Assembly (NCBI GenBank): GCA_003278425.1
Contig: QCFE01000001.1
Coordinates: 62,001-126,000 of the forward strand
Length of the DNA stretch: 64,000 bases
Direction: 5' to 3'
Origin: Prochlorococcus sp. AG-363-B11
GTDB taxonomy: Bacteria; Cyanobacteriota; Cyanobacteriia; PCC-6307; Cyanobiaceae
Part shown: piece after piece, positions 26,216-39,703 of the stretch
Layout of the letters: each line of letters starts with the position of its first letter
How positions within the stretch are numbered: the stretch's first letter is position 1
Translations under genes and position numbers: made by a program
The notes under the pieces: generated by a model
Databases searched by the model: none
Told to the model about the DNA's origin: nothing
Seen by the model: the letters and a program-made list of their open reading frames with translations, nothing else

Positions 26216-28272
<2,057 letters not shown>

Positions 28273-38064: not shown

Positions 38065-39087
38065 ATGACTAAAGCTGATCTACCAAAAAAAAATGAATCC
38101 CAAGAAGAGCAGACTAGTCAAAGTTCGAAACCAGTAAAAAATGTAAAGACAAAAGAAATAACTAAATTATCTCAACAAGATAATTTAGTTACTAGTCAAA
38201 ATTATAATCAAGATATCTCTCAAGATATCATTAGGATTGCTTTAAATGATCTAAAAGAAAAGCGGTCTAATCTAGAAAAAGAAATAGAAACACTAGAAAA
38301 AAGGAAGCAACGTTTAGAGAAAGAAGCTTCAACAACCTTTTCAGGGCAATCAGATTCGATTGCAAGAAGAGTTAAAGGTTTTCAGGAATACTTGACTGGA
38401 GCCCTTCAAGACTTGAGCAATTCTGTAGAACAACTTGATCTAATAGCGCAACCTGTAGTAGTTAACCCTTCTCCTCTTGATCAAACAAAAACTAAAGAAT
38501 CTGAAGAAGTAGAAGAAAAAGTTGACACTACTCCTGCAATAGCAGAAACATTCAAACCAGACAAAGACTTAATACTTCAACTCCTCAGTCAATACTTAGA
38601 AGGTCCAGATTACTATGCTGATCCCTGGAAATTCAGAAGGAGTTTAGAACCTCAAGATGCAGAGATCTTGCAAGATTGGTTTTTCAATATGGGTGGGAGA
38701 GGAGCTCAACCAAGCAGAGGAAATAGACCTAGAAACGTTCTTTTAGCAGCTGCATTAATTGCAATTCTTGGAGAATTATATGGAGATCGATTCCAAGCAC
38801 TTGTGTTAGCGAGCCAACCTGAACGATTAGGAGAGTGGCGACGAGGTCTTCAAGATGCTTTGGGACTGAATAGAGAAGATTTTGGCCCAAATAGTGGAAT
38901 TGTTCTTTTTGAAAGACCAGAACCTCTGATTGAGAGAGCGGACCGCCTAGAAGCAGAAAATGAGGTGCCCTTAATACTTATAGATGCTGCAGAACAAAGC
39001 ATTGAAATCCCTATACTTCAATTTCCTATATGGCTCACATTTGCAGCAACTCCTGATGAACTTTATATTGAAGAAGAATTAATTTAG
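38065..39087 (+). CDS. DUF3086 family protein
   Basis: 340-residue cyanobacterial protein. A polar N-terminal tail is followed by a coiled coil ([30 protein letters not shown], about residues 57-86). The conserved C-terminal domain (about 165-340) contains [57 protein letters not shown] and [15 protein letters not shown]. No catalytic motif seen; function unknown. The next gene, plsY, starts within about 14 bases of its stop. Confidence 0.85.
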
Positions 39088-39100
39088 CAGGTTAAAAGCA

Positions 39101-39703
39101 ATTAAAATCACATTTTTTTTATTACTCATTAGTTATTTTCTTGGATCTATCCCAAGTGGATATCTTGCAGGGAAATGGATAGCTGGAATAGACCTTAGAA
39201 AAAAAGGTTCTGGGTCTACAGGTGCAACAAATGTTTTAAGACATGTTGGGAAGATACCTGCTTTACTTGTTTTCTTTTTAGATGTTAGTAAAGGTACAGC
39301 TGCAATATTAATTTCCAAAGCATATCTGTTAGACGAGAGCCTACAAATCATTGCAGGTCTTGCCGCTATAACAGGTCATATCTGGCCAATTTGGCTAAAA
39401 GGAAAAGGAGGCAAAGCTGTAGCTACTGGTCTTGGAATATTTCTCGGAATCTCATGGGAAGTAGGGCTTGGATCTTTAGGTATATTTCTTATTATTTTAA
39501 GTATTTGGAGAATAGTTTCTTTATCAAGTATTTGCGCTGCGATAAGTCTTCCAATAATTATGGCCATTCACTTATCAGATAATACTTCTATTCCCTATAT
39601 GTTAATTAGTCTTATTGCAATGGCACTTGTTCTATGGAGACATAGGACGAATTTCATTAGATTAATTAATGGAGAAGAACCAAAAGTAGGTAGTAAGGGT
39701 TAA
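39101..39703 (+). CDS. plsY: Glycerol-3-phosphate acyltransferase PlsY, non-canonical start
   Basis: Membrane acyltransferase that makes lysophosphatidate from acyl-phosphate. The translated frame 39083-39703 shows the three conserved loops: [30 protein letters not shown] with FFLDVSKG, and [21 protein letters not shown]. It ends in a TAA three bases before the convergent pyrF. There is no ATG, GTG or TTG anywhere between the in-frame TAA (39080-39082) and the conserved N-terminus, so initiation must be at ATT (39101) or ATC (39107). An AGGT element at 39089 is 8 bases upstream of ATT. About 200 residues. Confidence 0.9.

Follow-up and report, generated by a model that had tools for sequence, protein, structure and literature searches.

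Loss of the ancestral ATG of plsY in a Prochlorococcus clade and its probable replacement by an AUU start codon

Introduction

Needed housekeeping genes that start at AUU, as plsY of one Prochlorococcus clade appears to do, are represented in E. coli by infC and pcnB. The infC gene makes IF3, which discriminates against infC's own AUU. The two genes differ in what they encode, since the infC product acts on initiation, whereas the plsY product is by profile a lipid acyltransferase and the feedback that characterizes infC was not found for it. PlsY is the glycerol-3-phosphate acyltransferase that is needed for membrane lipid synthesis. In the paper found on plsY in Prochlorococcus, the gene is simply named among those for lipids. 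Functional AUU starts occur elsewhere as well, pcnB of E. coli being cited and cvfC1 of Staphylococcus aureus being described in this context (PMC13009471). The plsY gene analyzed here lies in a stretch of 64,000 nucleotides of Prochlorococcus sp. AG-363-B11 (the window), and its frame (39083-39703) was originally predicted to contain no standard start codon ahead of the conserved N-terminus.

Results

The prediction that plsY lacks an ATG, GTG or TTG start was borne out by the sequence. Downstream of the TAA that closes it (Table 1), the frame is open from 39083 to 39700 and ends with TAA at 39701-39703, and its first in-frame standard codon is codon 153 counted from ATT 39101, which lies deep in the conserved enzyme. 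The fact that no standard start occurs before this codon supports the expectation that gene callers easily miss or truncate the gene. The product belongs to the PlsY family according to the curated profile TIGR00023 (185 bits; cut-off 137), and it also matches PF02660 (180 bits; cut-off 24). When ATT is taken as residue 1, residues 5-197 align to residues 5-194 of the crystallised PlsY 5XJ5, with zero N-terminal offset. The gene is a single copy, with no second match in the multi-contig, 82% complete assembly, and the pairwise dN/dS values of 0.10-0.19 within a clade of five genomes indicate a working protein under purifying selection and not a decayed gene. No relatives were found among viral contigs.

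Table 1. Positions of the plsY features and of other genes without a standard start (numbering of the window unless a contig of the genome, G000, is given)
Feature	Position	Strand	Remarks
DUF3086 gene	38065..39087	+	PF11285, 405 bits; stop TAG 39085-39087, 13 nt before ATT
In-frame TAA closing the plsY frame upstream	39080..39082	+	read in sequence
AGGT, short Shine-Dalgarno-like motif	39089..39092	+	4-bp match, aligned spacing 9 nt; not above background; 8 nt before ATT
plsY CDS	39101..39703	+	inferred AUU start to stop, 200 residues; TIGR00023/PF02660, full-length 5XJ5 match, dN/dS
ATT, inferred plsY start codon	39101..39103	+	ATT in five clade members and G202; ATG in G204
ATC, rejected alternative start	39107..39109	+	ATA in G201, AAC in G151
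T8 run	39113..39120	+	not a common slippage site: broken in G201 (CTTCTTTTATTG); 7 T in G135/G116
cobD/CbiB	27250-28269 (G000:C1:89250-90269)	+	no ATG/GTG/TTG before codon 132
rsmB (16S rRNA C967 methyltransferase)	G000:C3:64348-65691	-	loci L255-L265; in G000 no standard start before codon 35
cobS	G000:C2:84265-85119	-	loci L267-L279; no standard start before conserved core
NAD-dependent epimerase	G000:C1:28815-29864	+	no standard start before conserved core; may be assembly error; seen in G000 vs G010 only
Metallophosphoesterase	G000:C5:31852-32727	-	no standard start before conserved core; seen in G000 vs G010 only

The genus comprises 14 species-level genomes, and plsY is present in 13 of them. 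Alignment of the region upstream of plsY, which had been proposed as a check, revealed the same start loss in four relatives, G135, G116 and G201 (the single-cell genomes AG-412-P08, AG-402-G10 and AG-436-K22, respectively) and G151. Together with the window's genome (G000) they form one clade (support 100/100), and in none of its five members does a standard start precede the conserved first helix. In G202, which stands outside this clade, plsY is likewise without a standard start. As in most relatives, the gene starts with a stop-overlapping ATG (TAATG, over the DUF3086 stop) in G010, G093, G166, G178 and G190, with TTG in G065, and with ATG at codon -14 in G204. Among about 100 distinct plsY 5' ends of the family, only those of the five clade members and G202 lack any ATG, GTG or TTG ten or more codons ahead of the conserved Gly-Ser. 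G201 is the sole clade member with an in-frame TTG, seven codons into plsY. The absence of a standard start is real and not a sequencing slip, because five separately assembled genomes agree, which excludes sequence error. An indel in the T8 run, raised in the original prediction, was rejected too: the run is interrupted in G201, and an ATG is not recoverable, since no other frame of the window has an ATG near ATT for an indel to restore. The five clade members share ancestry, and their state therefore represents one loss event, not five. At two further loci, L086 (G085) and L034 (AG-363-K07), ATA replaces the stop-overlapping ATG at codon -19, and the GTG of codon -12 may be used in its stead.

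Codon -14 lies 13 nt beyond the DUF3086 stop in the five clade members and 14 nt beyond it in the relatives with the stop-overlapping ATG. As a result, the ancestral plsY ATG no longer shares the plsY frame in G135, G116 and G201; in the window and in G151 the ancestral triplet is no longer ATG. Comparison with the outgroups suggests that the change in the clade was a deletion. In G202 the spacing of 14 nt is kept, but AAG stands in the place of ATG. G202 thus lost its ATG separately, by substitution, and the genus total is at least two losses. In relatives that start with ATG (G093, G166 and locus L024), the ATT of codon -14 is an internal isoleucine codon, so it was already available once the ATG was lost. 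In plsY of G201 (L050/L048), the old ATG, 14 nt before ATT, opens an ORF of seven codons (MRQRQLL) that overlaps the plsY start and could compete with AUU initiation.

Codon -14 reads ATT throughout the clade and also in G202, and the codons -13, -12 and -11 vary within the clade. The invariance of ATT is weak by itself, as 5 of the 16 ATT codons of plsY are ATT in all five genomes. In the sister genome G204 the sole plsY start is an ATG that occupies the very position of ATT, and loci from other genera (L038, L040, L043 and L045) also have the plsY ATG at codon -14. Two properties of conserved near-cognate AUU genes were found in plsY, namely no standard start before the conserved N-terminus and the same codon across species. 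An AUU start would give PlsY an N-terminus of normal length, and this is the best explanation of the aligned sequences. The positions proposed for ATT 39101, ATC 39107 and an AGGT 8 nt before ATT were all located as described, and of the two codons put forward as likely starts, ATT, shared by the whole clade, was retained and ATC, which is ATA or AAC in relatives and has no fitting Shine-Dalgarno-like match, was not. Taken together, we consider it likely that translation of plsY starts at AUU 39101.

The Shine-Dalgarno-like motif before this codon is unremarkable and counts as supporting evidence at most. Shine-Dalgarno-like matches of 3-4 bp precede ATT at an aligned spacing of 6-9 nt in all six genomes (the clade and G202), and a match of 4 bp is equally frequent before ATG starts and before internal ATT codons (16% each). 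In terms of duplex energy, calculated with a 16S tail slightly unlike the genome's own, the plsY motif of the window beats 86% of ATG starts, as do 19% of internal ATT codons. Local RNA structure at the plsY start is weak, with 197 of 200 shuffles folding at least as well, which is in favor of a start there.

The base rate of such genes was estimated by comparing five contigs of G000 (C1-C5, 591 kb) with the SS120-like complete genome G010, which gave 470 orthologue pairs of at least 100 aligned residues. The plsY gene was the most extreme of the 470 pairs, with 121 identical residues ahead of its first standard codon. By eye, five further G000 genes were judged to reach their conserved core without any standard start, namely cobD, cobS, rsmB and the genes of an NAD-dependent epimerase and a metallophosphoesterase. 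Genes of this kind thus make up about 1% of those compared, a share in which the single-genome cases may include assembly errors. A published reconstruction found 1 AUG-to-AUU switch among 61,358 reconstructed AUG starts in 36 genome groups, a figure which counts switches and not standing cases and so gives no ratio with the 1% (PMC5622118). In rsmB, 9 of 10 readable genus loci, G010 included, have AGGAG and, a few bases on, ATT or ATA; several of these loci have a TTG further in. In cobS, CTG stands after an AAAGG- or AGAGG-like motif at 6 of the 7 genus loci read. The cobD gene is without a standard start in most genus loci; its candidate start CTG 27256 overlaps the ilvC TGA (CTGA) and is constrained by the end of ilvC. 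The infC gene was also considered as a within-genus precedent for AUU and was rejected, its start being ATG in all seven genomes with a readable start; the incomplete genome to which the window belongs yielded no infC.

Discussion

The state of plsY in the clade may be described by a short series of events. The ancestral ATG was put out of frame or destroyed, and the internal isoleucine AUU, five codons downstream, would have taken over as the start. Loss of the ancestral ATG and rescue by an existing isoleucine codon suffice to explain what is observed. Ribosomes that have just completed DUF3086, 13 nt upstream, would initiate at this AUU, where the short AGG motif perhaps holds them. AUU starts are normally weak, which makes a lower PlsY output plausible, and by this analogy the output of the gene is likely to be reduced. 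Initiation of plsY is probably coupled to DUF3086 termination. In model coupled genes, scanning ribosomes choose the start nearest to the upstream stop, at distances that reach a few tens of nucleotides (PMC12548453).

The rare codon may also be seen as a selected control point, as the original prediction suggested, with IF3 or the initiation machinery keeping PlsY low or tuned to conditions in the manner of infC or sigR. The genus has lost the plsY AUG at least twice and AUU was retained, and IF3 is able to repress the GUC start of sigR (PMC5472188). However, no conserved extra element was found at the plsY start, the Shine-Dalgarno-like motif is ordinary, and sister genomes freely use ATG or TTG for the same gene. 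Moreover, PlsY has no role in initiation, therefore no infC-like loop can be closed, and a small mutation followed by rescue is the simpler account. Control by AUU is thus possible but unsupported, a candidate role only, and we regard it as unlikely that the codon was selected for this purpose.

It seems quite unlikely that plsY starts at another near- or non-cognate codon, be it ATC 39107, one of the upstream TTT, AGC, AGG, TTA, AAA or GCA codons, or codons specific to each species. In HL-type relatives the codon that aligns with ATC 39107 is indeed an ATG, ATC directly precedes the ATT of G202, and the in-frame TTG of G201 lies at codon 7. Nevertheless, ATA in G201 and AAC in G151 mean that ATC 39107 cannot be a start shared by the clade, this codon has no Shine-Dalgarno-like match at a usable distance, and the codons upstream of ATT are not conserved.

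That ribosomes reach the plsY frame by frameshifting is very improbable, whether they would slip at the T run after starting at an out-of-frame ATG or read from DUF3086 past its stop and so make a fusion. The plsY frame is open as far as the DUF3086 stop, and in G135 and G116 a +1-frame ATG lies 14 nt upstream of ATT with its frame open through the T7 run. This ATG is, however, absent from G000, G151 and G202, and in G201, where the T run is interrupted, its frame ends after seven codons. Programmed slippage after a start at this ATG was rejected, as only G135 and G116 combine it with an intact T run, and the DUF3086-PlsY fusion was ruled out by the relative frame of the two genes, which differs in G202. 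The chance that the observation stems from a mistake in sequencing or assembly, or from a gene in decay, is negligible, although the assembly of the window's genome is incomplete and in several contigs, since five separately assembled genomes agree and the only plsY copy is under purifying selection.

The additional genes without a standard start invite a wider reading, in which the SS120-like Prochlorococcus genus would routinely start about 1% of its genes (plsY, rsmB, cobS and perhaps cobD) at AUU or CUG, far above the handful of cases known in model bacteria, and in which rsmB, with AUU behind a strong Shine-Dalgarno motif, could be feedback-controlled like E. coli infC. The base that RsmB methylates, C967 of 16S rRNA, lies next to the initiator tRNA in the P site, and E. 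coli without RsmB selects its initiator less strictly (PMC7949028). As a hypothesis, an AUU start of rsmB could thereby permit an infC-like feedback loop; this wider reading as a whole is tentative, and we hold it to be doubtful. In these genomes, gene callers limited to ATG, GTG and TTG will omit plsY or shorten it, and the same probably holds for cobD, cobS and rsmB, with the consequence that lipid or vitamin B12 synthesis would look incomplete.

Initiation of plsY at AUU, as favored here, can be set beside several described systems. The cvfC1 (AUU) and ccpN (AUA) genes of Staphylococcus aureus likewise have conserved non-canonical starts outside infC, but they possess a strong extended Shine-Dalgarno sequence and proof from footprints, whereas plsY has a match of 3-4 bp and a start predicted from sequence (PMC13009471). 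The sigR gene of Streptomyces (GUC) shares with plsY a non-canonical start within a closely spaced gene pair; unlike plsY, it comes first in its pair, and IF3 has been shown to repress its start (PMC5472188). The plsY case also resembles the frame-shifted lambda cI gene, in which a one-base deletion displaces the ATG and a nearby non-standard codon takes over, but cI was studied in an E. coli laboratory circuit, while the change in plsY is natural and was kept across species (PMC6397469). The switch from AUG to AUU is very rare, and plsY seems to have made it and kept it across five species, which provides a natural test of the weakest start that a needed gene can tolerate and of whether upstream coupling enables it. 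Summarizing, plsY appears as a further case among the genes with near-cognate starts, one in which the record of start loss, as read from the compared genomes, is unusually clear.
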